Virus record (IMG/VR): IMGVR_UViG_3300004369_000822
Coordinates: 1-48,313 of that record
Length of the DNA: 48,313 bases
Reading direction: 5' to 3' (one strand)
DNA from: a virus
Positions 24,382 through 43,927 of this stretch are shown here, piece by piece (positions within the stretch are counted from its first letter, which is position 1; each line of letters begins with the position of its first letter). The position numbers and the translations under genes are program-made. The notes beneath the pieces are model-generated. The model had not been told where the DNA came from. It did no database searches and worked only from the letters and a program-made list of their open reading frames with translations.

Positions 24382-24410
24382 TGTTTAGCAAGCACAGATC
24401 GGAATGTCAA
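24382..24410 (-). promoter_or_regulatory. Candidate sigma70-type promoter
   Basis: On the minus strand a perfect TTGACA (24405-24410) is followed after 17 bases by TAAACA (24382-24387), about 24 bases before the ATG at 24358. It overlaps the stop of the upstream oxygenase gene. The -35 is ideal and the -10 is weak. Confidence 0.5.
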
Positions 24411-25117
24411 CTATTTGGTTGCTGAATGCTTAACCCGAGAAGTTCGTCAACTTTTTCGGGCCACATGATGAAGTCTCTCCAGTTCTCCGCAAGAAGATCG
24501 GTATATGAAGCAATCGCAATTGTTTTCGCGCGCATCCAAAACATGGCAGAGATATACCGCTCGCCTTTATCTATACGGCTTATGCGGTGTCCATATTTAT
24601 GAGTTGAAGGCCAGGTAATTAACATTCCTGCTTTGGGCTGAATCCAGTCTCGATCCCCGAATTGAACTTTCCCGCCTTCGTAATTATCGTTGTAGTAGAC
24701 GACAGATTGAATATCATGTAATCCCGCTGGATATGGAGCCATTTCCCCAGGTCGACGAGTTTCTTCATGTAACTGTAAAATTTTACCGTCTCCATCACGA
24801 GAATAGTCATAATGAAGGCCAATAGCGTCACCAACACAATATTTTCTGAATGACTGACCCCGGCTAATGACCAGAGGTTCTTCATAAATCGATTCCAATA
24901 AAGAGCAAGTTCGTGCGAGTAGGGATTGATAGCCAGATCGCCATGGCTCCTGTTCAACAACGCTCTCTGACGACATGAATTTTCCTAAACCAGGGTTCGG
25001 ATGATCCATGTCCCACGCCAAAGGATTTTCAACTAAATCTCTCCAAAAATTTAGATCTTCATAACTTAAGAAATCGTTAATAACGCGAAGATTAGGATTT
25101 TGATTCATAACTGACAT
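24407..25117 (-). CDS. Fe(II)/2OG oxygenase, P4H-like
   Basis: 236 residues with the double-stranded beta-helix core of a prolyl-4-hydroxylase-type enzyme. Metal ligands are His102-x-Asp104 (GLHYDYS) and His177 (KYGHRIS), with Arg187 (KGERYISAMFW) for 2OG. The YYNDNYEGGKVQFGDRD turn and PKAGMLITWPS strand are typical. Such enzymes hydroxylate proteins or amino acids at the cost of 2OG and oxygen. The gene lies four bases from the small gene upstream and stands apart from the main oxygenase cluster. No strong ribosome site is visible at its ATG. Confidence 0.85.
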   Translation of the reverse strand: MSVMNQNPNLRVINDFLSYEDLNFWRDLVENPLAWDMDHPNPGLGKFMSSESVVEQEPWRSGYQSLLARTCSLLESIYEEPLVISRGQSFRKYCVGDAIGLHYDYSRDGDGKILQLHEETRRPGEMAPYPAGLHDIQSVVYYNDNYEGGKVQFGDRDWIQPKAGMLITWPSTHKYGHRISRIDKGERYISAMFWMRAKTIAIASYTDLLAENWRDFIMWPEKVDELLGLSIQQPNS

Positions 25118-25120
25118 TTA

Positions 25121-25378
25121 CTAAATATGCCTTGATTGAACCGCTGCCTGCAGGTCATGAAAAGCATCTGGATTAGTGGGATCTTGGAAGAAAGCCATAG
25201 CCAACCTAGAGATTAGGTGATCGGTACCACTGTGACTGGGGTCACTTAAACTGGGATTGTTCCTAATACCGTCACTAATTGCTAGGGCCAACAGGGAAAA
25301 ACAAATTCCTTCCATGTAATTCCCATCGTTGGATGCCCGAGAGGCTTTTTGCAGGGCAAATTCGTGTGAAACGATCAT
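25121..25378 (-). CDS. Small helical protein
   Basis: 85 residues with a clear AAAGG ribosome site six bases upstream. Helical throughout (ALQKASRASNDGNYMEGI, CFSLLALAISDGIRNN), slightly acidic. It leads the minus-strand run containing the first oxygenase. No recognised family. Confidence 0.5.
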   Translation of the reverse strand: MIVSHEFALQKASRASNDGNYMEGICFSLLALAISDGIRNNPSLSDPSHSGTDHLISRLAMAFFQDPTNPDAFHDLQAAVQSRHI

Positions 25379-25519
25379 TTATTAGGACCTTTCTGAAAAT
25401 TCAAAAAAAAATCAGGTTTTGAGTTGTTATGTCAACGATTCTGCGTTATCTTTGTCGTCGCTTGAGAAATACCACTCAAGCAACTTTCAACCATACAAAC
25501 TATCCGAAAGGCAAACCCA
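25379..25519. promoter_or_regulatory. Divergent control region
   Basis: 140 bases between oppositely oriented genes. A TTGACA lies on the minus strand at 25430-25435, but 17 bases further on there is only an AT-rich ATTTTT. An inverted repeat GCTTGAG / CTCAAGC with an eight-base spacer (25460-25481) sits before the plus-strand gene and could be an operator. An A-run at 25403-25410 adds curvature. Confidence 0.4.
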
Positions 25520-25780
25520 ATGTCAGCAATTAGCGAATTTGAAAGGATCACCAAGCAAAACGCTGGCTTGATCCGCCGTGGACGTCCGAGTGTCCTGACT
25601 CCAGAACAGAAGGAGCAGCGCAAGAATGTTCAAAAGATCAAGAACCGTCTCCGCAACGAGGCACGCCGTCGAGCACACATTGTCCTTCAGTACCGCTACC
25701 AGGACGAATTCAACAGCTTGATGGAAGAGGAACTCACCAACCTCCAGAAGAAGGATCCCCGTTACAAGATTCCTTCGTAA
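25520..25780 (+). CDS. Small basic coiled-coil protein
   Basis: 86 residues. A basic middle (RRGRPSVLTPEQKEQRKNVQ, KNRLRNEARRRAH) is followed by a helical acidic end. The RRGRPSVLTP stretch is like an AT-hook or a minor-groove arm. A histone-like or regulatory DNA-binding role is plausible. GAAAGG precedes the ATG, and a strong terminator follows within 30 bases, so it is a single-gene transcript. Its codon use is rich in C at third positions, which suggests high expression. Confidence 0.6.
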   Translation: MSAISEFERITKQNAGLIRRGRPSVLTPEQKEQRKNVQKIKNRLRNEARRRAHIVLQYRYQDEFNSLMEEELTNLQKKDPRYKIPS

Positions 25781-25806
25781 CGCAATCACAAGCCCAAAAA
25801 GAAAAA

Positions 25807-25829
25807 GGCCACCTACGGGTGGCTTTTTT
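25807..25829 (+). terminator. Rho-independent terminator
   Basis: GCCACC / GGTGGC stem with a TACG loop (25808-25823) followed by six T. It ends the transcript of the small basic protein. An A-run on the other side could let it work on the minus strand too. Confidence 0.88.
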
Positions 25830-25874
25830 CGTTTTCTTCCCCATGCTCCCTGAAGGCTGATGTACCATCAATGA

Positions 25875-26177: not shown

Positions 26178-26205
26178 CTAAAGACTCAGGGAAAAGGAAA
26201 GAACA

Positions 26206-28134
26206 GTGGCTTTCATCAGCGATGAATTTGTAGCTCAGTACGCCCCAAAACAAGCTCCATGGGGATTCGGAGGACTCGGAGAAATTGTCTATCTTCGCAC
26301 ATACAGTCGACCGATTGAGGAACTAGGGCGCAATGAAATGTGGCCCGAAACGATCCAGCGAGTCATTAACGGTGCAATTGACATTGGAGTTGACTACACC
26401 CAGGCAGAAGCCGAACAACTTTTTGATCACATGTTCAATCTTCGATGCTCGTTCTCTGGCCGCGCATTGTGGCAGTTGGGAACTCCACTGGTCAAAAAAT
26501 TCAATGCAGCATCTCTCAACAACTGTTATTTCGTCAATATTGAAACAATTGAAGACTTTGAATTTCTTTTTGATCATCTGATGCTTGGCGGAGGCGTCGG
26601 ATTCTCTGTGGAGCGATCAAAAATTCACGAACTCCCCAAGGTAAAAACAGGAGTGAAAATCACTCATGAAAGAAGCAACGACGCTGACGTCATTGTTCCA
26701 GACTCACGCCAGGGTTGGAGTCGCCTACTGCACTCTGTTTTGAAATCCTATTTCCACACAGGAAAATCGTTTAGTTATTCAACGATTTTAATTCGCGAGT
26801 TTGGCGCTCCGCTCAAATCCTTTGGTGGGACAGCTTCAGGTCCAGGCGCTCTCATTGACGGAATTGAAGACATTTGCAAAGTAATGGATGCGCGAGTTGG
26901 AAAGAAACTTCGCTCTATTGACGTTTTGGATATCGCAAACATCATTGGTCGCATTGTCGTTTCGGGATCGTCGCGGCGATCAGCCCAGATTGCCATAGGT
27001 GATCCAGACGATGTGCTATTCCTCAGGGCCAAGAATTGGTCATCCGGATCCGTTCCAGCGTGGAGGGCCAACAGTAACAACAGTATCTATGCAGATTCAT
27101 GGGACGAAATTCTTTCTGAAGTATGGAAGGGATACGACGGATCAGGAGAACCATATGGACTCGTTAATCGTAAACTTGCTCGACAATATGGACGCCTCGG
27201 AGAGAAGCGTCCTGATCCCACTATTGAGGGATACAACCCCTGTGCAGAAATCGCTCTTGGGGATGGCGAATCATGCAACCTCTCAACAATCTTCCTGCCG
27301 AATATTGAAACCGAGAAGCAGTTTAAAGAGGTTTCGCGTCTTCTCTATATGACACAAAAACATATTACTCAAATGAACTATCCGTACGATAAGACAACGA
27401 AGATCGTTGCGAAGAACGCACGTCTAGGGCAGTCAATTACTGGAGTTTTGCAGGCAACGCCGAAACAGTTGTCTTGGCTTTCTCCCACATACGAATATCT
27501 TCGCTCGGTAGATGAAGAGTATTCAAAAGCTCACAACTTTCCCGTTAGTGTTCGTCTGACGACTGTACAGCCGTCGGGAACTTTGTCGCTCCTACCCGGC
27601 AACACCCCTGGCATTCATCCCGCTTATGCCCGCTACTACATTCGGCGAGTTCGTTTTGGAGCAGCCGACCCTCTGGTGGAGGCATGTCGTCGACGCGGTT
27701 ATGTGGTGAAGTGGGATGTTGGTCTGGATGGACGCGAGGATCACACTCGTTATGTAGTGGAATTCCCCGCCGAGTCACCGGACGGTGCAGTTCTTGCCAA
27801 GGACATGACCGCTGTTGAGCAGTTGGAGTGGGTTAAGAAGATGCAAACCGAGTGGGCCGATAACGCCGTTTCGGTAACCGTCTACTATCGCAAGGAGGAG
27901 TTGGCGGATATCAAGGAGTGGCTGAGCAACAATTACACTGACAGCGTAAAAAGCGTGTCATTCCTCCTTCACTCGGATCACAATTTCCCGCTTCCTCCTT
28001 ACGAGGAAATCACCGAGGACGAGTACAAGAAGATGGTCGCCAAAGTTGATTTCTCGGTTCCGCTTGTCCTGGATGCTTCGGGAACTGAACTTGACCCTAG
28101 TGAGTGCGCTACGGGAGCCTGCCCCATTCGCTAA
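26206..28134 (+). CDS. nrdJ: B12-dependent (class II) ribonucleotide reductase, monomeric type
   Basis: 642 residues, GTG start with AAAGGAAAG upstream. It reduces ribonucleoside triphosphates to deoxy forms using adenosylcobalamin. Key residues are visible: first redox Cys107 in SLNNCYFV, the active loop NPCAEI (Asn344, radical Cys346, Glu348), second redox Cys357 eleven residues later, TTVQPSGTLSLLPG in the barrel, and the C-terminal pair Cys634/Cys639 (ECATGACP) that re-reduces the site. This pattern matches the Lactobacillus-type RTPR, though the protein is about 100 residues shorter. Class II needs no oxygen, and its cobalamin must come from the host or medium. It meets the next gene tail to tail with a four-base overlap. 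Confidence 0.95.
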   Translation: MAFISDEFVAQYAPKQAPWGFGGLGEIVYLRTYSRPIEELGRNEMWPETIQRVINGAIDIGVDYTQAEAEQLFDHMFNLRCSFSGRALWQLGTPLVKKFNAASLNNCYFVNIETIEDFEFLFDHLMLGGGVGFSVERSKIHELPKVKTGVKITHERSNDADVIVPDSRQGWSRLLHSVLKSYFHTGKSFSYSTILIREFGAPLKSFGGTASGPGALIDGIEDICKVMDARVGKKLRSIDVLDIANIIGRIVVSGSSRRSAQIAIGDPDDVLFLRAKNWSSGSVPAWRANSNNSIYADSWDEILSEVWKGYDGSGEPYGLVNRKLARQYGRLGEKRPDPTIEGYNPCAEIALGDGESCNLSTIFLPNIETEKQFKEVSRLLYMTQKHITQMNYPYDKTTKIVAKNARLGQSITGVLQATPKQLSWLSPTYEYLRSVDEEYSKAHNFPVSVRLTTVQPSGTLSLLPGNTPGIHPAYARYYIRRVRFGAADPLVEACRRRGYVVKWDVGLDGREDHTRYVVEFPAESPDGAVLAKDMTAVEQLEWVKKMQTEWADNAVSVTVYYRKEELADIKEWLSNNYTDSVKSVSFLLHSDHNFPLPPYEEITEDEYKKMVAKVDFSVPLVLDASGTELDPSECATGACPIR

Positions 28135-28946
28135 ACCGGTGTAGTGATCACACGAAAGCGTCCCTGACGGTACTCAAGGTCGCTGTTGGGGATGCTTTCG
28201 GTTGTGACCATTACTCGCTTCAACCATCGGTCGGTTCCGTCGTATCGCGCCTCAAATGGGGTGCGCCCATGAACGGTTTTCTTGTTGTCAATGATCATCA
28301 AATCGCCGCTTCGTAAATAGTATTTTTTGGTAACGGCATCTATAGCTTCGGAAAGAATAGATAACGCTTTTTCCGCTTCGGTCGTCGTTCCCACCATAAG
28401 GGCACGGTCATATGTGATTGATGTTTCGTCCAGGGTGAGTACTGACATCATCGGTGGGGTCAAAGAGTACTCGTCACTACGGAAACTGGCATCAATTTCA
28501 GTAACGAACTCATGTCGCTTGAGGGTGGATATTGTCACGGGGTCAAGTAGTGGCAGAATGTCTGACAGAAGCGCAATGTTTGTTCCCGCTTCAAGATCTT
28601 CGCGCACACAAAACAGCAAAAAGGTAGTGGGCCGATAACGGTGAAAAGCCGTTTCGGTGTGCATTTCCAAAGCTACTTTAGATGACGATGAAATTTGTTC
28701 GGTCTCGTTCGTCTGTATAGGGAACAGGTTTTGTACGGTGTTTCCATCTTGCTCCTGGGCATACCCGAAGACCGATCCGAATCGTGAGGCACTGGTCCGT
28801 AACCATAAATCGATCTCAGAAAAGATGGGATCTGTGTACGGCGGGGATGCGAGGTCAGCCAAGGCCGAAGGCGTGGGGTAGGGTCGAAGGCGGTCGTGGA
28901 ACTCCTCGTTCAGCCATGAAGGTTGTTCAATTTTTATTTGCTTCAT
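28131..28946 (-). CDS. Fe(II)/2OG oxygenase, clavaminate-synthase/AsnO/VioC-like
   Basis: About 271 residues. Metal ligands are His-x-Glu (EMHTETAFH, His96/Glu98 from the ATG at 28946) and a distal His226 in KKTVHGRTPFEARYDGTDRW, with Arg244 for 2OG. The HTE triad variant and the VHGR-PF-ARYDGTDRWLKR block are hallmarks of the group that hydroxylates free L-Asn or L-Arg in non-ribosomal peptide pathways (AsnO, VioC). This suggests a small-molecule or amino acid substrate rather than a protein. It follows a methyltransferase and a PhyH oxygenase on the same strand and could act with them. A TTG two codons upstream is an alternative start. Confidence 0.85.
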   Translation of the reverse strand: MKQIKIEQPSWLNEEFHDRLRPYPTPSALADLASPPYTDPIFSEIDLWLRTSASRFGSVFGYAQEQDGNTVQNLFPIQTNETEQISSSSKVALEMHTETAFHRYRPTTFLLFCVREDLEAGTNIALLSDILPLLDPVTISTLKRHEFVTEIDASFRSDEYSLTPPMMSVLTLDETSITYDRALMVGTTTEAEKALSILSEAIDAVTKKYYLRSGDLMIIDNKKTVHGRTPFEARYDGTDRWLKRVMVTTESIPNSDLEYRQGRFRVITTPV

Positions 28947-28958
28947 TGCCAAAGGTTT

Positions 28959-29621
28959 TCAGGTTTGGCTAGTTTCGTGCGGACCAGGAGCATAAGTATC
29001 GTTAACAATGTTCAGCACATTCTCAGGCGTCCAGTCTGACCAGCCGCGCTTCATGCAACGAATCGCAAACTGCCAATGCCACTTAGAAACAACAGGCCAA
29101 GTGATTTGAGCGGAATCATCCCTCCACTCACTCATCTGAGTTGAATTGGGAATAGTGTCAGTGAAATCCTGAAGACTTACAAAATCCATTTTCTCAAGAA
29201 TTTTCCAAACACGATCTTGATGACAATTCCAATGGTGCGTTGCCCCATCCCAAAACTCGTTTCCTCGCCCTGGCTGATAATTAAAATCCTGGTGCTCAAG
29301 AGTTGACTCAACCATATGCCACGGTTCATGCCCGTCTGCCCATCGGCGAATTGTTCTGTAAACATCCGGGCCAACAACCAGCAGATAACCACTAGGCTTA
29401 AGTATTCGTTTCATGTCTTGCAGAAATGCCGGTATGGCTTTCCAGTCAATATGTTCTAAAACATGACCCAAGTAAATGGCGTCAAACGAGTTGTCATCAA
29501 AGGGATAAGGCTCACCAGGAATCACGCGAACATCTGGTTTGGTTGTTTCACTTTCCCAAACATCAGCATTGACCCAGCCTTTTGCATAATGAGTCCCACA
29601 TCCAGCGTTAAGCAGTTTCAT
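28959..29621 (-). CDS. Class I SAM-dependent methyltransferase
   Basis: 220 residues. Motif I is LLNAGCGTHYAKGW at the very N-terminus, with Asp20 (VNAD) as the acidic residue of motif II. FDAIYLGHVLEHIDW (47-61) follows, then MKRILKPSGYLLVVGPD, typical of the Methyltransf_11 group. The C-terminal half is Trp/His-rich and probably forms the substrate pocket. The substrate is not evident. The next gene starts 12 bases downstream, and the PhyH gene is just upstream, so methylation and hydroxylation may act on the same compound. Confidence 0.85.
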   Translation of the reverse strand: MKLLNAGCGTHYAKGWVNADVWESETTKPDVRVIPGEPYPFDDNSFDAIYLGHVLEHIDWKAIPAFLQDMKRILKPSGYLLVVGPDVYRTIRRWADGHEPWHMVESTLEHQDFNYQPGRGNEFWDGATHHWNCHQDRVWKILEKMDFVSLQDFTDTIPNSTQMSEWRDDSAQITWPVVSKWHWQFAIRCMKRGWSDWTPENVLNIVNDTYAPGPHETSQT

Positions 29622-29627
29622 AAAACC

Positions 29628-30431
29628 TCAAATCGTTATGTCGTCTGGTCCGTAATATAGATCAAGGTCGGTCTTCAAAGGAAAATACCAGCCTCCATCT
29701 TTATGATGTTGAGCTATCGGCATATCCGGTCGATGCCCAGCACCAGAATAGTGAGCAATTAGCGAACGACGCTCAAGACCATGAATATTTGCCCGCGATC
29801 CTCTGTGCAAAAGACGACCATGCCAAACCAATAGGTCGCCACGTTTCGGCAGATAAGAAACTACCTCTGCTTCACGACGAACAATTTCCTCTTCAAATAG
29901 TGGACTAAGAATTTGCTCAGAAAACTTTGGCCACCGATGGTCGCGTTGATCTGGTGGAAGAGCAGACAATATGTTTTCTCTTGTGACCTGTGGCCAGCGG
30001 TGCGAGCCAGGGACATATTGGAACGGTCCAGAATCAGGGTCAATTGAATCAAGTGCGATCCATACGGCCGCATAGTAATCGCCAACCCAAGGCGGGTTTA
30101 GGTAAGAGTCTTGATGCCAATCACGTTCAGTTGAAACCCATCCAGTTAGATTTAAATGCAAGGCTGCGGTATCGCTAATCAAGTCCGATAGCACATTTCC
30201 TAAAGCTTGCCAGCATAATAAATCTCGAATTGCTTCATGTCGCATGTAAGGTATTGGATCTGGCCACCCAGACACGCGATTAGAGTTATGCGCTAGCCAA
30301 CATTCCTCGTAGGCTACTAGCAGGTTCTCGGGAAAGAATTTGTCAATAATTACCACCCCGTGGTCATTCCAATCGGCGGAACTGGGCGGGGGCGGATCTA
30401 TAGTTAAATTAGCTAATGAATGTGTTTCCAT
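29628..30431 (-). CDS. Fe(II)/2OG oxygenase, phytanoyl-CoA dioxygenase (PhyH) type
   Basis: 267 residues from the ATG at 30431; a longer frame would run into the opposite gene's leader. His106-x-Asp108 (DWHQDSYLNPP) and His209 (WHGRLLHRGS) form the metal site, with Arg221/222 (ERRSLIAHY) for 2OG. FQYVPGSHRWPQVT is the classical PhyH segment. PhyH enzymes usually act on small molecules, including lipids, halogenated or amino-acid-derived products. It starts a three-gene minus unit with the methyltransferase and the AsnO/VioC-like enzyme and lies 57 bases from a divergent oxygenase gene. Confidence 0.9.
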   Translation of the reverse strand: METHSLANLTIDPPPPSSADWNDHGVVIIDKFFPENLLVAYEECWLAHNSNRVSGWPDPIPYMRHEAIRDLLCWQALGNVLSDLISDTAALHLNLTGWVSTERDWHQDSYLNPPWVGDYYAAVWIALDSIDPDSGPFQYVPGSHRWPQVTRENILSALPPDQRDHRWPKFSEQILSPLFEEEIVRREAEVVSYLPKRGDLLVWHGRLLHRGSRANIHGLERRSLIAHYSGAGHRPDMPIAQHHKDGGWYFPLKTDLDLYYGPDDITI

Positions 30432-30488
30432 GGTTGGTGATGTTACTATGCCGAAAGTCAAGTCATCTTCATTAACCGAGGAAAAGCA

Positions 30489-31124
30489 TTGAATCAATAC
30501 GAAATAACACCAAAACCGCTTATTTCGCTTGATGTCTACGAAACATTTGTACACGACGTTAACAACAGCAAGCTACTAGCCGATGTTCGTAGACATGGTC
30601 ATCTAGTTGGGATGGATTGCGAAGCTAACGGAGTTGTGAGCAGGGGCTTTATTCAGTATGAGGATATTGTTGTCCCCATAACAAATGAGACTGCAAAACT
30701 AGAGCGGAGCGTTCTTTCAGTAATTCAGCAAATAACCGGGGGACGTAAGTATAAGATACAAGACACTTGGGCAGTTGACCTAGAATTCAATCAGAGCGTT
30801 ATACCACATACGCATAAATCAAACCTTCATTTGCACCCACTGGAATACTACTCGTTTTGTTATTATCCGGAGGTTCCCGAAAATTCTGCCCAACTGACTT
30901 TTTACGCGAATTATTGTGATCAAATGACCAATATGGTCACCATTCAGCCAGAAGTCGGCAAGTTGGTGATTTTTAATGCTTTTGTCATGCACTTCACATC
31001 ACGACATAAAGGTTCAACAAATCGTATGGTAATAAGTGGAAACCTATCACCGGTAAATCCAACCTCTTACGAAAATGCTGATTGGGATGCCTATCATGAT
31101 CGACCAAAAGTATGTGAAGCATGA
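30489..31124 (+). CDS. Putative Fe(II)/2OG oxygenase (2OG-FeII_Oxy_5-like)
   Basis: 211 residues from a TTG with GAGGA upstream. The C-terminal half (about 90-190) fits the family seen in many marine phages. It has TWAVDLEF, a His-rich metal strand (PHTHKSNLHLHPLEYYS, with His114/His116), the YYPEVPENSAQLTFYA strand pair, then KLVIFNAFVMHFTSRH (His168) and NRMVISGNLSP (Arg179 for 2OG). The exact metal ligands are less certain than in the other enzymes here. It leads a ten-gene plus-strand operon, and its stop overlaps the next start by four bases. Confidence 0.72.
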   Translation: MNQYEITPKPLISLDVYETFVHDVNNSKLLADVRRHGHLVGMDCEANGVVSRGFIQYEDIVVPITNETAKLERSVLSVIQQITGGRKYKIQDTWAVDLEFNQSVIPHTHKSNLHLHPLEYYSFCYYPEVPENSAQLTFYANYCDQMTNMVTIQPEVGKLVIFNAFVMHFTSRHKGSTNRMVISGNLSPVNPTSYENADWDAYHDRPKVCEA

Positions 31125-31813
31125 GTGACGACATTCTTTTCGTGATTGACAACTTCATCAAGGATCAACACCTAATTGAGGCCATTAAAGGTGACCCAGA
31201 GTTTTTTCCCGCCGCAATGGACGGGACAAATATTGGAGAGTTCAACAACTTCTACCACGATGGGGCCGCATCTTGCTTTGCTCCATACATGTTTTGGGAG
31301 GGTTGGCAAAAAGAAGCCCCCAACACATTAAGGAAACAGGTGATTGAAGCAATATGGAGAGATGCTTCGTATTTACCAATACCAGAGTCAGAAATATTGG
31401 GTTTTGAGTATTGGTGTAGAACATTCAATCAGGGACAGTACCTAAATGTTCATGTTGATGAGGACAGTTTTGCATACGAAGATGAACGCATCTTCAATGC
31501 ATGTTTAATTGGGTGCGTCTGGTATGGGTTCACTGAATGCGCCAGTGGATTCCTTGAACTTCACAATAACTACATAACAGGAAGCCCCAAAAATGCCCTT
31601 GAATCAGAAAACTTTCTACCCCTGTCATCACCACTAGACCAGAGAGAACGTATCTCTTATAAGCCCAACAGGCTCGTTGTATTTAACGCTGGTCGCAGGA
31701 TACATGGGACGACAGCCGTTCAGGAGGGAACTAGGCAGGTCATGGTTGTCAACCTGTGGTCTAAATCTAATCCACCAAGTGGTTTGGAAAAGAATCGATT
31801 CTTTAAGGAGTAA
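31121..31813 (+). CDS. Fe(II)/2OG oxygenase
   Basis: 230 residues. His111-x-Asp113 (YLNVHVDEDSF) and His195 (GRRIHGTTAV), with Arg205 (EGTRQVMVVNLW), give a complete facial triad and 2OG anchor. The fold looks P4H-like but lacks the N-D-D-x-x-G-G-E loop of the other family members here, so it belongs to a different branch. The substrate is unknown. ATGA overlap with the gene before and a two-base gap to the next make co-translation likely. Confidence 0.8.
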   Translation: MSDDILFVIDNFIKDQHLIEAIKGDPEFFPAAMDGTNIGEFNNFYHDGAASCFAPYMFWEGWQKEAPNTLRKQVIEAIWRDASYLPIPESEILGFEYWCRTFNQGQYLNVHVDEDSFAYEDERIFNACLIGCVWYGFTECASGFLELHNNYITGSPKNALESENFLPLSSPLDQRERISYKPNRLVVFNAGRRIHGTTAVQEGTRQVMVVNLWSKSNPPSGLEKNRFFKE

Positions 31814-35913: not shown

Positions 35914-37113
35914 TTAGATATTAATAACTTCACCAGATCTGGTACCGTGTCCAAAGAATTCTAGGTAAGAAACACGCCTGCCCGAGGTAACAGTCTCCAC
36001 AAAATGCGAACCGACATAACCTGATGGATACAAGATTGCTGTTCCTTTTTGGGGCTTGAATATCTTCCCTATTCTTTTGAGGCCAAGACCCCCACCATCA
36101 CACCTGTCGGACAGAATTAGCGAAGCAGACACAACATTAAATGCTGCGTTTTCGTTTCCTCCAGCATGGCCAATCGCAGTGTCATGGTGAATGCCCATGC
36201 CAGCGCCAGGCCCATAAACCGCCAAATGGGCATCTGATCGCCATGTAACACAATCAGATGCCTCTGGATATAACCCAAGGTATGTTTTAATACAACTCAA
36301 CATGGCAGACTGAATTGAACTATGAAACTCTTTGTCCTGGTCTGTTATGTCTGGGGCTACTAGGCGAAGATAGCGAATAGGAACACCGGAAATGTCCTCT
36401 TTGGTGAAGAGATATCCACCTCGGTTCACGAACATACCATCTTCTGTTTCAATGTAGTCACTAGGTTCTGAAACCGCACGTCGTGCTAAATACTCATCAA
36501 GAAATTGATCGTCCACCTGAAACAGGTTAGAAAACTCAACAACACCAAATCCATGATCAATTACGGATTGATTTTCTGAATGAGTTGCCTCTTCTAGGCC
36601 GCGTTTTATGGCTTTGGCGCTAAGGACGCTTCGCTCAACAGCAAACGGCGTTTCTGCAAACATGCCTTCCACAATGACTAAAGCCTCTTCGTCTTCGCCA
36701 GAAACATAGATCGTTCGATCATTGTGCGGATCATTAGGATGAGGATATGGCCAGCCGTATATTGCGGCTTCAACATACCTGATTCCCGCGCCCTCTAACA
36801 AAGCCTTTAGTTCAATTTCTTTGCTTTCGCTACCTACATGGTTAGCATCAATAAAAATACCTTTATAGGAGTTTTTTACCGCAGCCGCTGCGTGCGGAAA
36901 AATGCCAGCACCCATAGATATTGAAATAACCACATCGGCTTGGCGAATCGCTTCATCAATATCAGCAATATTTATAAAACCAGCCTGCTCCGCATTATTT
37001 TTAGTGGTGTTAGATCTTTCTGTAGTTGACACGATGACATCGTGACCTTTTCCTTGAAGCAAAGTGCCAAGTGATGTACCCATCTTGCCAGGGTGAAGAA
37101 TAAGTACCTTCAT
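35914..37113 (-). CDS. Rossmann dehydrogenase domain fused to a P4H-like Fe(II)/2OG oxygenase
   Basis: 399 residues from the ATG at 37113; the longer frame overlaps the previous gene. Residues 1-160 look like the NAD(P)-binding half of a beta-hydroxyacid dehydrogenase or imine reductase. KVLILHPGKMGTSLGTLL is the dinucleotide loop, then DVVISISMGAG, GIFIDANHVG and YVEAAIYGWPYP, where such enzymes have their substrate loop. The helical dimer domain is absent. Residues about 190-395 form a complete oxygenase: His309-x-Asp311 (MGIHHDTAIG), His370 (VGSHFVETV), Arg380 and FFGHG. No break is seen between the domains. Hydroxylation followed by oxidation, or reduction of a product, in one polypeptide is a reasonable inference. 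Last gene of the long minus operon. Confidence 0.82.
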   Translation of the reverse strand: MKVLILHPGKMGTSLGTLLQGKGHDVIVSTTERSNTTKNNAEQAGFINIADIDEAIRQADVVISISMGAGIFPHAAAAVKNSYKGIFIDANHVGSESKEIELKALLEGAGIRYVEAAIYGWPYPHPNDPHNDRTIYVSGEDEEALVIVEGMFAETPFAVERSVLSAKAIKRGLEEATHSENQSVIDHGFGVVEFSNLFQVDDQFLDEYLARRAVSEPSDYIETEDGMFVNRGGYLFTKEDISGVPIRYLRLVAPDITDQDKEFHSSIQSAMLSCIKTYLGLYPEASDCVTWRSDAHLAVYGPGAGMGIHHDTAIGHAGGNENAAFNVVSASLILSDRCDGGGLGLKRIGKIFKPQKGTAILYPSGYVGSHFVETVTSGRRVSYLEFFGHGTRSGEVINI

Positions 37114-37120
37114 AAGTTGC

Positions 37121-37978
37121 TCAACGCCCCACATAATCCAAAGAGTATCCGTGTGTCATGTAAACATTCGTGGAGATCTTCGCTGCTTCTGGACTTTCAA
37201 GAGGATCCGTGACGTTTTCGCGGACATCAGGGTTGGGGGTTCCCTGGCAATACCAGCCTAGATAGGAATACCTCCATCCACCCGTTACTACCTGTACTTC
37301 ATGTGCTGCAACATAATTTGATGGGAAAAACAGCATGTCACCCTTTTTAGGTTTATAGCCGAAACCAAGATACTCGAAGTAATGATGACCTCCGGTAAAA
37401 TTAGTCCCATCAAGCTCGGCCTCGCTATCTACACAGTCGTTCAGATATGCAACAACCGAAACTGAATTGCGGGTCGCTAATTGATCAACTGGGTGTGGCT
37501 TGCCATATTCGTAATCAGTGCTTACATCAGAATGCATTCCCAGGAACGCACCCTCTGGATAGGCAACAATATGACTTTTAATCTTCCACCAAATACACTT
37601 ACCAGCAAGAGGGAAATGTTCCAAGTACTTGAGTAGACACGCATCCCGTACATCTTCAATGTAATTTAAGGTCTCAATAACATGAGGTTCAGAGTTCTGA
37701 TGAACCATGCTCCCCCGCCAGGGCATACGTTCAACGGAACCTTCTGAGAAAAAATACCCACTTCCATTGATGTATCCCTTTTCGCCACTAATTGGATCAA
37801 CCCCAGGTTGATACTGCCTTGAACGTTCTTCATTGAGAGTGTCTTTGCAAAACAATCGCATCCAGTCCCAGTCTAAACCGAATGCGTTTTCAAAAAGGAC
37901 GACACCACCACCAAGGTGAACGCCACTAGGGGTGGGAAGATCTACAAGATGGTTGTCACCAGGTCTGCTTGGGCTCAT
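37121..37978 (-). CDS. Fe(II)/2OG oxygenase, P4H-like
   Basis: 285 residues with a strong GAGGG ribosome site. Metal site: His149-x-Asp151 (LGMHSDVSTDY) and His226 (YVAAHEVQVV), 2OG Arg236 (GGWRYSYLGWY). SVSVVAYLNDCVD replaces the usual NDD-x-x-GG turn with a longer loop before GGHHYFEYLGFGYKP. It is paralogous to the enzymes at 34,862 and 43,118. It ends eight bases into the leader of the fusion gene, so the two proteins are made together. Confidence 0.88.
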   Translation of the reverse strand: MSPSRPGDNHLVDLPTPSGVHLGGGVVLFENAFGLDWDWMRLFCKDTLNEERSRQYQPGVDPISGEKGYINGSGYFFSEGSVERMPWRGSMVHQNSEPHVIETLNYIEDVRDACLLKYLEHFPLAGKCIWWKIKSHIVAYPEGAFLGMHSDVSTDYEYGKPHPVDQLATRNSVSVVAYLNDCVDSEAELDGTNFTGGHHYFEYLGFGYKPKKGDMLFFPSNYVAAHEVQVVTGGWRYSYLGWYCQGTPNPDVRENVTDPLESPEAAKISTNVYMTHGYSLDYVGR

Positions 37979-38057
37979 AAAAATCCCTCAAAAAGTTTCT
38001 ATTTAAGTAGTCACGGCGTTTCAACGGATCAATAACAAGTGGAGAACTATCGGTCAT
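37956..38057 (-). CDS. Possible 33-residue protein between two oxygenase genes
   Basis: An ATG at 38057 with AGGAG nine bases upstream opens a frame of 33 residues (MTDSSPLVIDPLKRRDYL start, WRQ-poor, ending PKQTW). It overlaps the stop of the TauD gene by 11 bases and the next oxygenase start by 23 bases. Gap length and ribosome site favour it, but it is too short to be sure. Confidence 0.38.
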   Translation of the reverse strand: MTDSSPLVIDPLKRRDYLNRNFLRDFYEPKQTW

Positions 38058-39627
38058 TTTCGTACTCTCCTAATGTAATCATTAATGATAAAAAGTCTCG
38101 AATCTCCTCAATCACCTTTCTTCTATCTTCCGATGACCGAAGATGATTGAAGCAGCCGAAAATAGTGTCTATGGCATAGTGAAACAGATAGTCAGATGAT
38201 GGATCATCATCACCCCAAAAAGCATGATCAATATAAGCCAAGTTACGCCAGTTCCACGGTCGGTTACCTATGTTTGGATAAGGCTTCCAATCAGGGTAGT
38301 GCCAAGCATGTCCAGCATGTCGTAGTTCCGGGTGAAATCCAAGCCAGACCTTGATGATGTCGCGAGGACTCTGTACATCAGTCCCAAGTGGTTCAGACGA
38401 AAGAATATCTTCCCCAGCGTGAAACGGTCTCCACATGTCACCATTACGAGCAAAAAGAAACTTTTGTCCTTCCTTCTGCTCAATGGATCCGAGCATTAGA
38501 GAGTATCGTTCCAGCATGTCACCTTCTGATGGAATAACAGCGTGTACATTAAAATCGTCATCGTTTACAATCTCTTTAAGTTTCCGAACATCATCGGGAA
38601 TTGTTCCTGACGATGAGTAAACACACATTGTGACCGTCTGATATTTCTCGCTTAATTCTGGGTAGGCGTAAATACCCTTGGTGTAAACAAGCGGAATGTG
38701 GTCAGGGTTAGGGCGAGGCGATGAGTAATCTTTTACATCAAACGGCGAAATCGGAATGCCGACTTTGGTATGAGATTCAAGTCCAGGAAACGACGGATCG
38801 TAAAACGGAGTTTCGTGGCCAAATTCTCCACGGGTAAACACCCGTTGATCATGCGCCCAACCTGGTGAAAACGAATGGATTAGGCACCGATTATCCCAAA
38901 AAACAGCGTCGCCAAGTTCCCAATTCCATGTAAAACGGTTTTCTGGATCGGCTAGATAATTTTCAACATACTTTCGCAGTTCTGGATAAAGCGGATTTCC
39001 GGGATCTGGCACATTGGTTCCGCCACCTGTCCAAAAAAGTATTGTTTCAGCAGTTATTGGGTGCGTCCTTAACGCTCGAATTGCTTGCTTATTTTCTTCA
39101 ATGCCACCCTGCCCAACATTGCCAGTGTTGGAGATGAACTCCAAGTCTTCAATATAGGAACGAAGTTCGGGCGGACATGCATTCCATAGATCAATCAGGC
39201 TAGCGAAATGAGTGCCACCATTAGGGTATTTACACTCAAATTTTGTCATGACCATGGACATGCATGAAGGAGGATCCGGAAAAAAGGCATTATCAACATG
39301 CCACTGGGAGGCAATGAATTTTTCAAACTCATTCGTTTCCGTATTGGGATTTCCGTTATGGCTTTGCTGATAAATCAGATTCATCTCAAATGATTCGTTG
39401 GTACGTTCTTCGGGTGCTGAGCGCCCCTCAAAAAACGATTTTGTCAGATGCGCCTGTTGATGTGGCCTCAAATTTATATTTCTGAAACAGATAACTTTAT
39501 GCTTAGAAAAAAGGTCAAAGAAAAAATCAAAATCGTTGCAAATCTCATCGTAAGAAATGCCCTGTAGCCGTAGCCCGAAGTTTCCTAAATCAAGACCCTG
39601 GGCGATACCGCCAACAAGCTTTCTCAT
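38047..39627 (-). CDS. Fe(II)/2OG oxygenase, TauD type, with a 240-residue C-terminal domain
   Basis: 526 residues. Residues 1-285 are a TauD/TfdA-type dioxygenase: His110-x-Asp112 (SQWHVDNAFFPDPP), GGTHFASLIDLW, His251 (NRCLIHSFSPGW) and Arg262 (QRVFTRGEFGHE). The rest is an extension not usual in TauD proteins. A strand-rich part (TVTMCVYSSSGTIPDD, DDFNVHAVIPSEGDM) is followed by a Trp/His-rich part (KVWLGFHPELRHAGHAWHYP) and a helical end. The extension may bind the substrate carrier or a partner. Start ATG overlaps the DUF6065 gene stop by four bases. Confidence 0.85.
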   Translation of the reverse strand: MRKLVGGIAQGLDLGNFGLRLQGISYDEICNDFDFFFDLFSKHKVICFRNINLRPHQQAHLTKSFFEGRSAPEERTNESFEMNLIYQQSHNGNPNTETNEFEKFIASQWHVDNAFFPDPPSCMSMVMTKFECKYPNGGTHFASLIDLWNACPPELRSYIEDLEFISNTGNVGQGGIEENKQAIRALRTHPITAETILFWTGGGTNVPDPGNPLYPELRKYVENYLADPENRFTWNWELGDAVFWDNRCLIHSFSPGWAHDQRVFTRGEFGHETPFYDPSFPGLESHTKVGIPISPFDVKDYSSPRPNPDHIPLVYTKGIYAYPELSEKYQTVTMCVYSSSGTIPDDVRKLKEIVNDDDFNVHAVIPSEGDMLERYSLMLGSIEQKEGQKFLFARNGDMWRPFHAGEDILSSEPLGTDVQSPRDIIKVWLGFHPELRHAGHAWHYPDWKPYPNIGNRPWNWRNLAYIDHAFWGDDDPSSDYLFHYAIDTIFGCFNHLRSSEDRRKVIEEIRDFLSLMITLGEYENDR

Positions 39628-40322
39628 TCTGGATTCCTTAAAACTGGATGACCATCAAATCGGGGGCCAATCTGTCTCCCGTTATGATCCACTCCGGTCC
39701 GTATGCCGTTCATCCATGACCAAGGTTCCTCTTGGACTTTCTTCATCTTGGCATTACTGTAGGCGTAGCGCTCTTCCATTAGTTCAGGCTTGTCCCACAG
39801 ATGTTCAACAGTGAATTCAACCTGGGGCATCAGAGTGTTGTCGTAAAACTGGAAAAACACAAACGGCATGCCTTCCGGGAATACGACCTCCTCATTAACC
39901 TTTGTGATCTTCCAGTTGAACTGCACCTCATCGGGCCACCAATAACTGGGGATGCTGGCAGCCAAGGGGGTCGCTCCATCAACAAAATAGTTAGGAGGAC
40001 CAGAAAGCCATGTACTGTATCCAGACTCGGTACCAAATGAGTACCCCATGTGAAAATCAATCATGCCAATTTTGTTGCAATTCGCAATTGGTCGACCGTT
40101 GAAATCTGCATCGTTAATGATTCTGGGAACGCTTAGACCGCCTTCCCAAACAACAACTATCTCCTTCTGAAGAAGAATTTCCCAGCCGCTGGTATTCGCC
40201 TCTGTTAGAGGAAGGCAACGATAGGCGTGCTTGTTGTAGCTATCATCCATCCACTGACGACGGACATCACCCGGACGAATTGTTGGCGCTAGTTGATGAG
40301 TTTTGGTCAATGTAACTTTCAT
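39624..40322 (-). CDS. DUF6065 family protein
   Basis: 232 residues. AYRCLPLTEANTSGWEILLQ (33-52) followed by VVWEGG and a later EVVFPEGMPFVFFQFYDN strand match what I recall as DUF6065, which is found in bacteria and aquatic phages with no known activity. The protein is beta-rich and Trp-rich, cupin-like in appearance, but without a clear metal triad. Related to the protein at 309-1,076 beside the halogenase. Coupled by four-base overlaps to oxygenase genes on both sides, so it is probably a partner of these enzymes. Confidence 0.75.
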   Translation of the reverse strand: MKVTLTKTHQLAPTIRPGDVRRQWMDDSYNKHAYRCLPLTEANTSGWEILLQKEIVVVWEGGLSVPRIINDADFNGRPIANCNKIGMIDFHMGYSFGTESGYSTWLSGPPNYFVDGATPLAASIPSYWWPDEVQFNWKITKVNEEVVFPEGMPFVFFQFYDNTLMPQVEFTVEHLWDKPELMEERYAYSNAKMKKVQEEPWSWMNGIRTGVDHNGRQIGPRFDGHPVLRNPE

Positions 40323-41026
40323 CCGATTGGCGTTACCTGAGCGTCTCCAATTACGGGAAGACCGTTCTTGCTAAACACCTGACCGTATGATCCCGAATAG
40401 CCGTTGTTCTGGTGGTTTCGGTCATTGTAGTCATACATTGTTACCGCAGAGTACTTCACTCCATTCGTTACCGGAAGTGATGCGTGAGCATAGATAAAGT
40501 CAGAAGGGTGAATAATAACATCACCCATTTCGGGTGTGAATTTCACATCCTGATACGGCATCAAATACTCTCCTCCCTCGTACCCGTCGTTAATGTATCC
40601 GATGGTGGAGACGGCGCAACTATACGAAAATCCCGAATCAGGGTGAACGGAAAAGTGCTGCCCCTCTTTATACTGAACAAAATTCGTGGATTCTTCGTAA
40701 TCAAGTTGAAGATTGTACAACCCGGAATAGTGCTTAACGCACTCACGTACACCCGCCATCACCTCGTTGTAAACGGCCTCTAAATCTTTGTACGCTTCAT
40801 CCTCAATTGGAAGTCGACTCTCATTAATTTTGAAATCAGAACAATCTCGGTAGTCCTTGATGATTTCCTGATCGCCCACCAACGCTGGCGACCAGCGGTA
40901 GAGTTCGTGATCACTTCCGTCAAGAATGCCCTCTAGTCGTTCTTGGAAATGTGAGTCTTTTGGCCAAACGCCCTTATAGAGCACAATCCCCGAATTCGGG
41001 TGGCCGATGTATCCTGCTACTTGCAT
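40319..41026 (-). CDS. Fe(II)/2OG oxygenase, P4H-like
   Basis: 235 residues, AAGGAG five bases before the ATG. His128-x-Asp130 (FSVHPDSGFSY) and His181 (IYAHASLPVT) form the metal site. Lys191 (GVKYSAVTMYDYND), as in animal prolyl 4-hydroxylases, takes the place of the Arg seen in the paralogues. TIGYINDGYEGGEYLMPYQD is the standard turn. It ends in a Gly/Tyr/Ser-rich tail. Confidence 0.88.
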   Translation of the reverse strand: MQVAGYIGHPNSGIVLYKGVWPKDSHFQERLEGILDGSDHELYRWSPALVGDQEIIKDYRDCSDFKINESRLPIEDEAYKDLEAVYNEVMAGVRECVKHYSGLYNLQLDYEESTNFVQYKEGQHFSVHPDSGFSYSCAVSTIGYINDGYEGGEYLMPYQDVKFTPEMGDVIIHPSDFIYAHASLPVTNGVKYSAVTMYDYNDRNHQNNGYSGSYGQVFSKNGLPVIGDAQVTPIG

Positions 41027-41035: not shown

Positions 41036-41671
41036 TTAGTTGATTGATGTGATCGTATAAAACGATGGGGTTGTCCATCGAACGCCAGCAGTTATTCTCT
41101 TGACGCCGTGAAGGTAGTGGACATCTCCTGGGTGAGCTACTGCCATACCAGCCTTGATTTTGAATTCTAGTCCGTAGTCCGGGTAATAGAACTCCCCACC
41201 TTCAAAATCGTCGTTCCAATAAATAATTGAGTTGATGTCATAGGTAGGGAATGGATTTGGTTTGCCGTCGTTAAGTTGCTTGTCGGCGTGAGGTGCTTGC
41301 TCTGTACCTGGAGTCCAACGTACAAGGACAGGTGGACGACCGTGAACGGAAACATTATGTTTATCGGAAATTACTTGCGCCATCTTTTCAATATACCTGT
41401 CAACAATGTTAAATATATCAGTATCAAGACGCTTAATTATCTCTCCGCTACAAACTCTGTCCCACCAATAATTCGCTTCGTAAATACAATCCCCATCATC
41501 ATCAAAAGTATCAGGAAGAGGATTTTCCCATTCATTAATGGTTTCCACGAACTTTTGAATTTTAACAAGATCTGACGCGTCTACAAAATTTTCAATGTAG
41601 ATAATTTGATCTTGTGAAGCGCCAAAATGGCCTGGCTCAACGAGAGATGCCTCAATTGGATTCTGCTCCAT
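41036..41671 (-). CDS. Fe(II)/2OG oxygenase, P4H-like
   Basis: 211 residues, close to the minimal P4H size. His128-x-Asp130 (QAPHADKQ), His188 (HYLHGVKRI) and Arg198 (AGVRWTTPSFYT) are intact. IIYWNDDFEGGEFYYPDYG is the substrate-side turn and IKAGMAVAHPGD the strand before the distal His. The first 50 residues are a leader with IIYIENFVDASDLVKIQKF. A 60-base gap separates it from the peroxidase-like gene; no promoter with both boxes is seen there. Confidence 0.88.
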   Translation of the reverse strand: MEQNPIEASLVEPGHFGASQDQIIYIENFVDASDLVKIQKFVETINEWENPLPDTFDDDGDCIYEANYWWDRVCSGEIIKRLDTDIFNIVDRYIEKMAQVISDKHNVSVHGRPPVLVRWTPGTEQAPHADKQLNDGKPNPFPTYDINSIIYWNDDFEGGEFYYPDYGLEFKIKAGMAVAHPGDVHYLHGVKRITAGVRWTTPSFYTITSIN

Positions 41672-41731
41672 GCCATCAGCATACTCGTGTCAATGACTCT
41701 TGGCAAGGATAAGTAGCCGAATGAGAAAGAT

Positions 41732-42646
41732 TTAATCCCTTAAAAATTCGTCAATGTCTTCTGAAATACTAGCAAGTGATATTTCCACACCCAAACGTTT
41801 TAGTTCAAGCATTGAGTTGCCCTCATTATCAAAAAAGGAGTCTGGAGAGTCCTTAATAGGAAGGCTAATGTGCTTGGGTCGATAATCCTGACGGCCATCC
41901 TCGGTGTACTTTTCGTCATTCCAAGGAAAAGGCTCATTAAGTTCATTGCGTTCGCCCAGCAAGAAACCATTACCATATCGCTTAAATCTGCGACCATCTC
42001 GTGCAATCAGAAACTTCTGAAAGTTCCCAGTTAAAGGAGCAAAGGAGCGCTTGCCCTCAGGAACTGGAGTGTGGCCATTATCAAGAGCTAGTGACCATGG
42101 AATGACCTCGTTGTGGTATGGAACCCCATTTTCATTTAAATCAGCGGCATAAGCGCCTGTGAGATATGACCACAAAGGATGCTGTTCTTGGATGTTAACT
42201 GAACCAGGTATATAGTCCTCGCTGTATGAATGCTTATCGTGCCGACCATTTGTCAGTTCAGAAAACGAGTAGGTAACATTCCAGTTTTCACGGGCATATT
42301 TTTCTGATAGTTGTCCGGGGGTTATTGTCATCTTATTTGTGTCAATATAATTCTGGAGACCGTTCTGAAATTCCGGGTATCCATGACATACGAAATCATC
42401 GACAACAATAGCAAGTATATTAAAATCTGGAACATCTTTGTACCGCTTATTCAGCAACTCTAACGAAGCATGTTGTGGAATATTCCCACATCCTGCAGCA
42501 ACATTAAAGACCAAGGTTACCTTATCTTGGTATTTATTAAGTATATTTTGGTCTTTGCCGTCTGCTGAAGACAAAGAAATCTCATAGAGATTAACTGGTG
42601 AAGTTTCTACAGGTATATATGGTCGCCTGTAATCCTCAATCTTCAT
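41732..42646 (-). CDS. Glutathione-peroxidase-like (thioredoxin-fold) protein with insertions
   Basis: 304 residues, nearly twice a normal glutathione peroxidase. KVTLVFNVAAGCGNIPQHAS (residues 42-61) matches the active loop, with Cys53 at the peroxidatic position. LELLNKRYKDVPDFNILAIV follows as in the family. NVTYSFSELTNG and TGNFQKFLIARDGRRFKRY (206-224) match the later blocks. The usual Gln of the second motif is not visible, and the Trp of WNF is replaced by Gly (GNF). Peroxidase activity is therefore doubtful; a thiol-disulfide or peroxide-sensing role is possible. It might protect the Fe(II) enzymes of this operon from peroxide. Confidence 0.7.
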   Translation of the reverse strand: MKIEDYRRPYIPVETSPVNLYEISLSSADGKDQNILNKYQDKVTLVFNVAAGCGNIPQHASLELLNKRYKDVPDFNILAIVVDDFVCHGYPEFQNGLQNYIDTNKMTITPGQLSEKYARENWNVTYSFSELTNGRHDKHSYSEDYIPGSVNIQEQHPLWSYLTGAYAADLNENGVPYHNEVIPWSLALDNGHTPVPEGKRSFAPLTGNFQKFLIARDGRRFKRYGNGFLLGERNELNEPFPWNDEKYTEDGRQDYRPKHISLPIKDSPDSFFDNEGNSMLELKRLGVEISLASISEDIDEFLRD

Positions 42647-42655
42647 AGGTACTTC

Positions 42656-43012
42656 TCACTTGAAGAACGGCCCTGTCATTGGGAACCCCGGGGGGAAGAA
42701 CGGTGGGAAGAACGGTGGGAAGAATGGTGGGAAGAACGGTGGGAAATAGGGTGGGAAGTAAGGGGTGGCTACAACATAGTCAATAATTTCACCTAGGGGT
42801 ATAGCTGATCCTGCTGTTTCCGTCTGCGACTGAACTAAATTAAGTTGGGAGGAACCAATAGTTCCGCTGGGGTCATCAATCGGTGAGTTAGTAACTGAAC
42901 CGCCAATAAATCCAGCATTACTAACCTGCGTTACAGCGTTGGCTGATGTCAACCCTACTAAGTTGGGTACGGTGCCTTTCGGCAAGTCCTCGTTCCATGC
43001 TGAAGTTGCCAT
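42656..43012 (-). CDS. PASTA-like protein with (F/Y)FPP repeat tail
   Basis: 118 residues. The first 80 form one PASTA-like unit (VPNLVGLTSANAVTQVSNAG, SQTETAGSAIPLGEIIDYVV). Six four-residue repeats follow (Y/F-F-P-P) and an end GFPMTGPFFK. PASTA domains usually bind cell-wall fragments, so a wall-contacting tail-tip or spike protein is plausible. The proline repeats resemble the sequences that prolyl hydroxylases act on, and P4H-like genes lie close upstream and downstream. No signal peptide is seen. Confidence 0.68.
   Translation of the reverse strand: MATSAWNEDLPKGTVPNLVGLTSANAVTQVSNAGFIGGSVTNSPIDDPSGTIGSSQLNLVQSQTETAGSAIPLGEIIDYVVATPYFPPYFPPFFPPFFPPFFPPFFPPGFPMTGPFFK
42690..42761 (-). 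repeat. Six tandem 12-bp repeats coding for (F/Y)FPP
   Basis: Units of GGTGGGAAGAAC on the plus strand, with a few base changes in the outer copies, remain in frame and encode one FFPP or YFPP each. The outer copies differ most, as expected for growth and loss of the central units by slippage. Confidence 0.92.
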
Positions 43013-43053
43013 TGGTCGTACCTAGCCTTACAGGTTTTGCGGGTCAAAAACGA

Positions 43054-43116
43054 TCAAATTTTCTCTACTAGGAGAATAGCAGATCCAGCGGTCAGGCTCT
43101 CGGTACAGAAAAGCAT
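43054..43116 (-). other. 20-codon open frame with a PASTA-like end
   Basis: One base after the P4H stop an ATG opens MLFCTESLTAGSAILLVEKI and stops. TESLTAGSAI-L-E-I resembles QTETAGSAIPLGEII of the PASTA-like protein encoded just downstream. It could be a leader peptide, or a remnant of a duplicated PASTA segment. The rest of the 105-base gap shows nothing else. Confidence 0.3.
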
Positions 43117-43117
43117 G

Positions 43118-43927
43118 TCAATGATCTTCAATTCTTTCAATAATCCTTTTAGCATTTGGATTTGTAGAAAACTTTGCGAATTCCTCGTACATATCATCCA
43201 TCCAGATCTTTCCCGTAGCGGATCCATAACCGGTGAAATCCTGAATGATTACCTTGTGCTTCTCGTCTGCTGAACCATGTCCATAAAAAGATACATACGA
43301 GTAACGAACTCCTTCCGTCACCTCCTGGACGCAGTGAGTTGCAAGGTAATTAGAGGGAAAGAAAACAATGTCTCCCGCTTTGGGACTAACTGTCAGGTCG
43401 TAGTACTCAAAATAGAGGTCGCCACCTTGGAAATCATCATTTAGTACGGTCGTGCATGACAGAGTGTGTCTTGTCGCCCCTTGATCAATTGGCTCAGTCT
43501 TGGGTCGATAGTTGACATCATTATCGCTGTGCAAACCAAGATTTGCCCCAGTTTTATAAACGCAAAAATGACCCATTGACCGCCACCATATGCTTCGTAG
43601 CAGATCGGGATACAGGTCAATGTAGTCTAATAGAACATTACTTATTGACTGTTCAATTTGACCAACCAAAACTGGATCAAGATTCTCTGTAATACGAATT
43701 GACGTTCTATCAATATGCTCGGGCAGCATTTTGTGAAAACTTCGGTTCACGGCATATTCTAGATTTCCGTCATCGTCGTACATGAATGTATACATTCGGG
43801 AAAGAGCATCTTCACATTGCTGATCTAGTAGATTTAAATCTTTCTGAGTAATAACATAGTTGTTTTTGTAAATGACAATTCCTGGCGCAAGAATTTCTCT
43901 ATCAAAACACGACGATGTTGACGGCAC
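43118..43927 (-). CDS. Fe(II)/2OG oxygenase, P4H-like
   Basis: 269 residues from a GTG with AAAGGTG eight bases upstream, placed inside the end of the tail gene before it. His133-x-Asp135 (LGLHSDNDVNY), His198 (YLATHCVQEV) and Arg208 (EGVRYSYVSFYGHG) are intact. TTVLNDDFQGGDLYFEYYD and PKAGDIVFFPSNY are typical of the group. It is close to the enzyme at 37,121 (matching YFEY and FFPSNY blocks). It is the first oxygenase of the long operon and directly precedes the PASTA/FFPP gene, the best candidate substrate. Confidence 0.9.
   Translation of the reverse strand: MPSTSSCFDREILAPGIVIYKNNYVITQKDLNLLDQQCEDALSRMYTFMYDDDGNLEYAVNRSFHKMLPEHIDRTSIRITENLDPVLVGQIEQSISNVLLDYIDLYPDLLRSIWWRSMGHFCVYKTGANLGLHSDNDVNYRPKTEPIDQGATRHTLSCTTVLNDDFQGGDLYFEYYDLTVSPKAGDIVFFPSNYLATHCVQEVTEGVRYSYVSFYGHGSADEKHKVIIQDFTGYGSATGKIWMDDMYEEFAKFSTNPNAKRIIERIEDH

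Follow-up and report, generated by a model that had tools for sequence, protein, structure and literature searches.

A recurring phage cassette links 2-oxoglutarate-dependent oxygenases and DUF6065 to a proline-aromatic repeat protein that the enzymes may hydroxylate

In animal collagen, several enzymes (P3H1/CRTAP/PPIB, the collagen prolyl 4-hydroxylase C-P4H, and LH3) act on one Gly-X-Y repeat protein, and in mussel foot proteins and plant extensins hydroxylated proline or aromatic repeats give rise to adhesive or cross-linked polymers. Among viruses, PBCV-1 encodes a prolyl hydroxylase, vCPH (5c5t, 5c5u), which was reportedly described by Eriksson in 1999 and whose presumed targets are proline-rich repeats in proteins of the same virus. 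Collagen-like tail-fibre proteins of phages contain a low-complexity repeat as well (PMC3368898), and the same paper states that the hydroxylases required for collagen are absent from bacteria and viruses. Viral use of prolyl 4-hydroxylase (P4H) is called cryptic in PMC9301287. Cyanophages and pelagiphages carry up to about eight P4H-like oxygenases, a likeness to the locus presented here, but the available excerpts of PMC3037559, PMC9599517 and PMC12774648 describe neither a repeat substrate nor a DUF6065 partner for them. In the two loci inspected from the isolated cyanophages S-H9-1 and P-SSM2, oxygenases stand singly or in pairs amid replication-type genes. Here we analyze the 48,313-bp IMG/VR virus record IMGVR_UViG_3300004369_000822 (hereafter the window; genes are named by the first position of their open reading frame, ORF). 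Whereas PBCV-1 is a eukaryotic virus with a single enzyme, the window belongs to a tailed phage, in which up to 13 Fe(II)/2-oxoglutarate (2OG) oxygenases and a DUF6065 protein accompany a linked PPxF repeat.

A preliminary description, made from the sequence alone, had proposed a dedicated modification system and left its target open. The linkage reported below narrows the likely target to the phage's own (PP[F/Y/H]F)n protein, encoded at 42656-43012, which that description had not listed. This PASTA-like protein lies between two oxygenases and ends PYFPPYFPPFFPPFFPPFFPPFFPPGFP...FFK. We consider it probable that the genes around it make up a mobile cassette for virion maturation, whose enzymes hydroxylate the proline-aromatic tail of a fibre protein. 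This reading builds on the anatomy of the locus, the class of the enzymes and their intact active-site residues, and on the linkage, order and conservation of tract and enzymes.

The DNA repeat underlying the tract (42689-42758) is the sole strong tandem repeat in the window, and its 29-base pattern has no further match anywhere in it. On a related 15-kb contig (L007), a similar enzyme series is immediately preceded by the gene of an FN3-domain protein whose tract is of this kind but longer. Used alone, the tract pattern matched at least 120 viral stretches in IMG/VR; the loci discussed here are among the matches listed in these scans. In 157 tract ORFs, the tract consists of 47% Pro, 44% Phe and about 0.5% Gly, and the variable position of its unit is F, Y or H; the Gly-X-Y pattern that defines the collagen-like phage tail protein is not found in it. 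The likeness to mussel foot proteins and extensins is one of sequence style only. The protein ends within 40 residues of the tract in 121 of the 157 ORFs, and the tract-bearing proteins contain FN3, PASTA, PKD, S74 or Hint/intein-like regions. Bacterial and archaeal genomes (257 Gb) yielded a handful of tandem matches and otherwise almost exclusively single chance matches. Long tandem tracts were confined to two metagenome-assembled genomes, on contigs that apparently carry the same oxygenase cluster, which makes the tract in essence a feature of phages. No relevant paper on the (PP[F/Y]F)n tract (PPFFPP/PPYFPP) or on DUF6065 was found in the open-access literature, which is weak evidence of novelty.

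The association between tract and enzymes was quantified in a panel of 50 whole phage records, chosen solely by resemblance to the capsid protein of the window. The tract was present in exactly five of them (G019, G021, G031, G034 and G045), and strong DUF6065 matches were present in exactly the same five. These records carry 9, 6, 8, 7 and 10 PF13640 genes, respectively, compared with 0-5 (median 0) in the other 45, and according to the listed positions 31 of their 40 oxygenases lie no more than 17 kb from the tract. With a first, strict F/Y pattern, four of the five positives had looked tract-free; the DNA of three such records contained PPHF units, His variants of the tract. The pattern was widened to His after these exceptions had been seen, and the rerun of the panel then caught all four.

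When records were selected by the tract, 35 of 37 carried PF13640 above the cut-off (median 7). Conversely, a tract was found in 20 of 22 independent DUF6065 loci from outside the tract set that have at least 5 kb of upstream sequence. Searches with hidden Markov models (HMMs) detected 325 P4H-like ORFs in the surroundings of tracts (1.13 Mb) versus 20 in loci selected by capsid (1.30 Mb), and DUF6065 in 62 tract loci versus none of the capsid-selected ones. A survey of gene order in related phages, as the preliminary description had suggested, placed DUF6065 downstream of the tract and on the same strand in all 96 of 96 loci, with a median gap of 2.4 kb. Orthologues of the two core oxygenases were nearly always retained in full loci (41036 in 59 of 60, 40319 in 60 of 60). 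The window capsid protein was matched by only 4 of 50 tract/DUF6065 records, whose contigs are incomplete, and this argues for transfer between lineages; the closest capsid relative (G001, 90% identity) has no PF13640 gene. Many phages contain the cassette in the same gene order, and in most of them the capsid is unrelated or was not detected; tract and enzymes probably travel jointly across lineages. In this respect a dedicated system is supported more strongly than the sequence alone could show, but not every one of the thirteen oxygenases need belong to it, as the TauD members, the PhyH member and 24407 lie outside the conserved core. The genes of the window are as follows.

24407-25117, minus strand: 2OG-FeII_Oxy_3 oxygenase (Pfam), with a ribonucleotide reductase lying between it and the main cluster
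28131-28952, minus strand: TauD-type oxygenase (Pfam)
28959-29621, minus strand: S-adenosylmethionine-dependent methyltransferase (Pfam)
29628-30554, minus strand: PhyH-type oxygenase (Pfam, active-site residues)
30489-31124, plus strand: Oxy_5-type protein with HxH for HxD (Pfam, active-site residues)
31121-31813, plus strand: divergent oxygenase, H111 D113 H195 R205 (PF13640 below cut-off, homologue alignment)
31816-32766, plus strand: TauD-type oxygenase (Pfam)
34080-34859, plus strand: possible methyltransferase-fold protein (weak profile match)
34862-35908, plus strand: 2OG-FeII_Oxy_3 oxygenase (Pfam, family profile), in 44 of 60 full loci
35914-37134, minus strand: NAD(P)-binding Rossmann region fused to a 2OG-FeII_Oxy_3 oxygenase (Pfam)
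37121-37978, minus strand: 2OG-FeII_Oxy_3 oxygenase (Pfam, family profile), in 43 of 60 full loci
38047-39627, minus strand: TauD-type oxygenase with C-terminal extension, 526 residues (Pfam, family profile)
39624-40322, minus strand: DUF6065 protein, predicted dUTPase-like fold (Pfam, model)
40319-41026, minus strand: core oxygenase 2, P4H/lysyl-hydroxylase type, H128 D130 H181 K191 (Pfam, family profile)
41036-41671, minus strand: core oxygenase 1, prolyl-hydroxylase type, H128 D130 H188 R198 (family profile, AlphaFold model)
41732-42646, minus strand: glutathione-peroxidase (GPx)-like protein (Pfam), in 26 of 60 full loci
42656-43012, minus strand: PASTA-like protein, (PP[F/Y]F)n tract at its C-terminus, candidate substrate (Pfam, repeat search)
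43118-43927, minus strand: 2OG-FeII_Oxy_3 oxygenase (Pfam, family profile)

An ORF was found at each of the thirteen starts for which an oxygenase had been claimed, and all thirteen products are oxygenase homologues. Curated Pfam cut-offs were exceeded by eleven of them: PF13640 (2OG-FeII_Oxy_3) in 24407, 34862, 35914 (C-terminal half), 37121, 40319 and 43118, TauD in 28131, 31816 and 38047, PhyH in 29628, and Oxy_5 in 30489 (34.4 bits, cut-off 27). The remaining two, 31121 (19.7 bits; PF13640 E 0.0017) and 41036 (21.1 bits), scored below. The HxD/E...H triad with an Arg or Lys is intact in twelve, in agreement with the earlier count, and the doubt expressed about 30489 was justified, as HxH (HTH) replaces HxD. 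Triad and basic residue are invariant among the aligned homologues of 41036, 40319, 43118/37121/34862, 38047 and 31121; for the last, H111-x-D113...H195...R205 is conserved in 10 homologues, and its family profile matched nothing relevant in the PDB. The genes 29628 (minus strand) and 30489 (plus strand) overlap, and the real start of 29628 is therefore probably an internal ATG. Profiles also confirmed the companions named before, namely DUF6065 (39624), the GPx-like protein (41732) and the methyltransferase 28959. A second methyltransferase-like fold, in 34080, has weak profile support, and the profile search gave no other assignment for this protein. The Rossmann region of 35914-37134 is N-terminal, and the fused protein may carry the oxidation of a hydroxylated residue further.

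Because the record is a linear fragment and related records are longer (70-160 kb), thirteen oxygenases are a minimum, and the complete genome may hold further ones. The large count is real but less exceptional than had been implied. Related contigs contain up to 14 PF13640 genes, 5-14 per record being common, and multi-oxygenase phages have been published: one table lists up to five 2OG-Fe(II) oxygenase genes in cyanophages (PMC3037559), and one pelagiphage set comprises eight non-orthologous oxygenases (PMC9599517). The number is high yet not unique, and it is the arrangement that counts.

In the PDB, the family profile of 41036 had no matches other than P3H1 (prolyl 3-hydroxylase 1) and bacterial P4H. 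Its AlphaFold model (pLDDT 89.5, pTM 0.85) has the double-stranded beta-helix fold; the nearest solved folds are P3H1, PBCV-1 vCPH, PiuC and bacterial P4H, and PHD2 was matched as well. For the remaining oxygenases, this fold is assigned from sequence profiles. The 40319 profile matched P4H and procollagen lysyl hydroxylase, and the 43118/37121/34862 profile was split among PKHD-type hydroxylases, P3H1 and P4H. The best PDB matches of the core profiles and fold are the enzymes that modify animal collagen. As judged from profiles and the predicted model, prolyl hydroxylases are the closest solved relatives of the core families 41036 and 40319, but not of the TauD and PhyH members.

The product of 39624 matched DUF6065 (PF19541) with 142.8 bits (cut-off 26.6). 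In Foldseek, its predicted model resembled dUTPases with moderate TM-scores (E 2.5e-5, TMt about 0.6-0.7, TMq about 0.4, root-mean-square deviation 5-6 Å). As regards the catalytic motifs of dUTPases, no Asp is fully invariant in the DUF6065 alignment. Several Trp and one Tyr are invariant; by analogy with other proteins, in which residues of this kind bind polyproline helices, they may do the same here. A PDB search with the DUF6065 profile detected neither a CRTAP nor a PPIB relative. Searching isolated phages with the window DUF6065 gave no match, and no window-type cassette was found among the phages searched in this way. A distant DUF6065 weakly matches haloarchaeal virus proteins; one of these is a hypothetical protein of Haloarcula virus HCTV-8 (L417, 4734-5567, E 2e-3), encoded near genes for tail fibres and for a class II ribonucleotide reductase.

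Several observations weigh against hydroxylation of the tract by a dedicated cassette or limit the evidence for it. The tract sequences of G019 and G021 match, and these records are probably close relatives, leaving about four independent cases in the panel. Two tract records, G055 and G076 (both about 37 kb), lack PF13640, and two loci, L244 and L290, have the enzymes and DUF6065 with no detectable tract. Successive tract units differ by 2088 synonymous and 868 other changes, where 22% synonymous would be expected, which argues for selection on the tract peptide, but the resulting dN/dS-like value of 0.12 is biased, the units having been recognised by their peptide pattern. The place of the tract protein in the virion is deduced from its domains and neighbours. 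Moreover, the TauD profile of 38047 resembles small-molecule oxygenases, and the linkage could reflect many genes inserted beside a tail-fibre hot spot. As a separate observation, the tail protein adjoining the DUF6065 cassette of L244 (6494-7312) has a short collagen-like Gly-Pro repeat and no PPxF tract. A link between 38047 and His-rich tracts, compared by eye, was inconsistent and was discarded.

Some of these points fit the view that the oxygenases act on other virion proteins or on host surface glycans or lipids, the tract being a mere neighbour in the tail-fibre region. Such regions are cargo hot spots, the PhyH member as well as the TauD members resembles small-molecule enzymes, and L244 and L290 keep the enzymes next to no visible tract. 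However, tract and enzymes are linked specifically and in a set order, and the core enzymes match hydroxylases that act on prolyl or lysyl residues of proteins; we regard this alternative as unlikely. A biosynthetic cluster for a modified peptide or small molecule, with the repeat perhaps serving as a cleaved precursor like those of ribosomally synthesised and post-translationally modified peptides, would account for the mixed oxygenase subtypes, the methyltransferase, the halogenase described below and the Hint-like domains of some tract proteins. Yet the tract is usually joined to FN3 or PASTA domains at the protein end, and the genes examined include no peptidase or transporter, which makes this explanation improbable. 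Several non-terminal tracts run on into Hint/intein-like or S74 chaperone domains. Seven loci (L128, L140, L161, L182, L188, L189 and L197) show a Hint/intein-like stretch after the tract, and self-cleavage there would make the tract the new C-terminus.

A role in host nitrogen/2OG signalling, in general auxiliary metabolism or in DNA repair is very improbable. Such roles have been suggested for cyanophage oxygenases (PMC3037559), but consumption of 2OG needs no large, divergent enzyme set fixed beside one repeat gene, and the links to the tract and to DUF6065 would stay unexplained. Nucleobase hypermodification by Tet/JBP-like chemistry is the least credible proposal, since the Tet matches (34862 to PF12851, E 0.027 and 14.1 bits against a cut-off of 34.9; its family profile to Naegleria Tet, E 0.015) are far weaker than those to protein hydroxylases, and the genes examined include no partner hypermodification enzymes.

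A second gene group was observed on the minus strand next to the capsid gene of the window; it encodes a phrog_7084 protein at 309-1076 and a tryptophan halogenase at 1039-2520. The former is distantly related to DUF6065 (hhalign E 6.9e-8). In an uncontrolled count of 41 other viral loci that contain phrog_7084, most had genes for a Trp halogenase and a P4H-like oxygenase together with it, and these trios are often near collagen-like (Gly-rich) or His/Pro-rich repeats. The loci L309 (7692-8768) and L454 (4329) encode virion-like proteins, whose repeats are (SHPGNPFHY)n or (HHNPSHQHTNPGN)n, just upstream of an oxygenase, a Trp halogenase and phrog_7084. In L418/G001, phrog_7084 adjoins the capsid gene, and the stretch examined contains no halogenase. 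The trios suggest that the theme of repeat modification is broader than the PPxF cassette, and a parallel cassette of P4H-like oxygenase, Trp halogenase and DUF6065-like protein may modify other repeats likewise.

If the tract is indeed the substrate, the cassette could work as follows. A phage fibre or tip protein would bear the C-terminal (PP[F/Y/H]F)n tail, and 41036 and 40319, both of prolyl-hydroxylase type, would hydroxylate its prolines and possibly its aromatic residues, assisted by the paralogues 43118, 37121, 35914 and 34862. As in animal collagen, several enzymes would thus act on one repeat protein, here with PP[F/Y/H]F in place of Gly-X-Y. Hydroxylation would take place in the infected cell, before the tract protein is assembled into the virion. 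DUF6065 would most likely bind or present the repeat protein, and the genes for the GPx-like, TauD, PhyH, Rossmann and methyltransferase proteins might give protection from uncoupled oxidation or decorate the protein further. What results would be a stiff tip of hydroxylated polyproline type that may serve adhesion or stability. The full picture, in which mobile prolyl hydroxylases and a dUTPase-fold adaptor create a hydroxyproline-rich polymer at the fibre tip, perhaps with hydroxylated or cross-linked aromatics, is tentative and on balance doubtful.

2OG oxygenases and prolyl hydroxylases of phages are abundant in aquatic viromes, and for this cassette it is now possible to name a candidate for the substrate, two core enzymes and a putative partner, the unstudied DUF6065. 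If the proposal is correct, phages would possess a counterpart to the maturation of collagen, extensin or mussel adhesive, in which many dedicated enzymes mature a fibre post-translationally and are swapped between phages as a unit. This would bear on host adhesion and on the engineering of protein materials.

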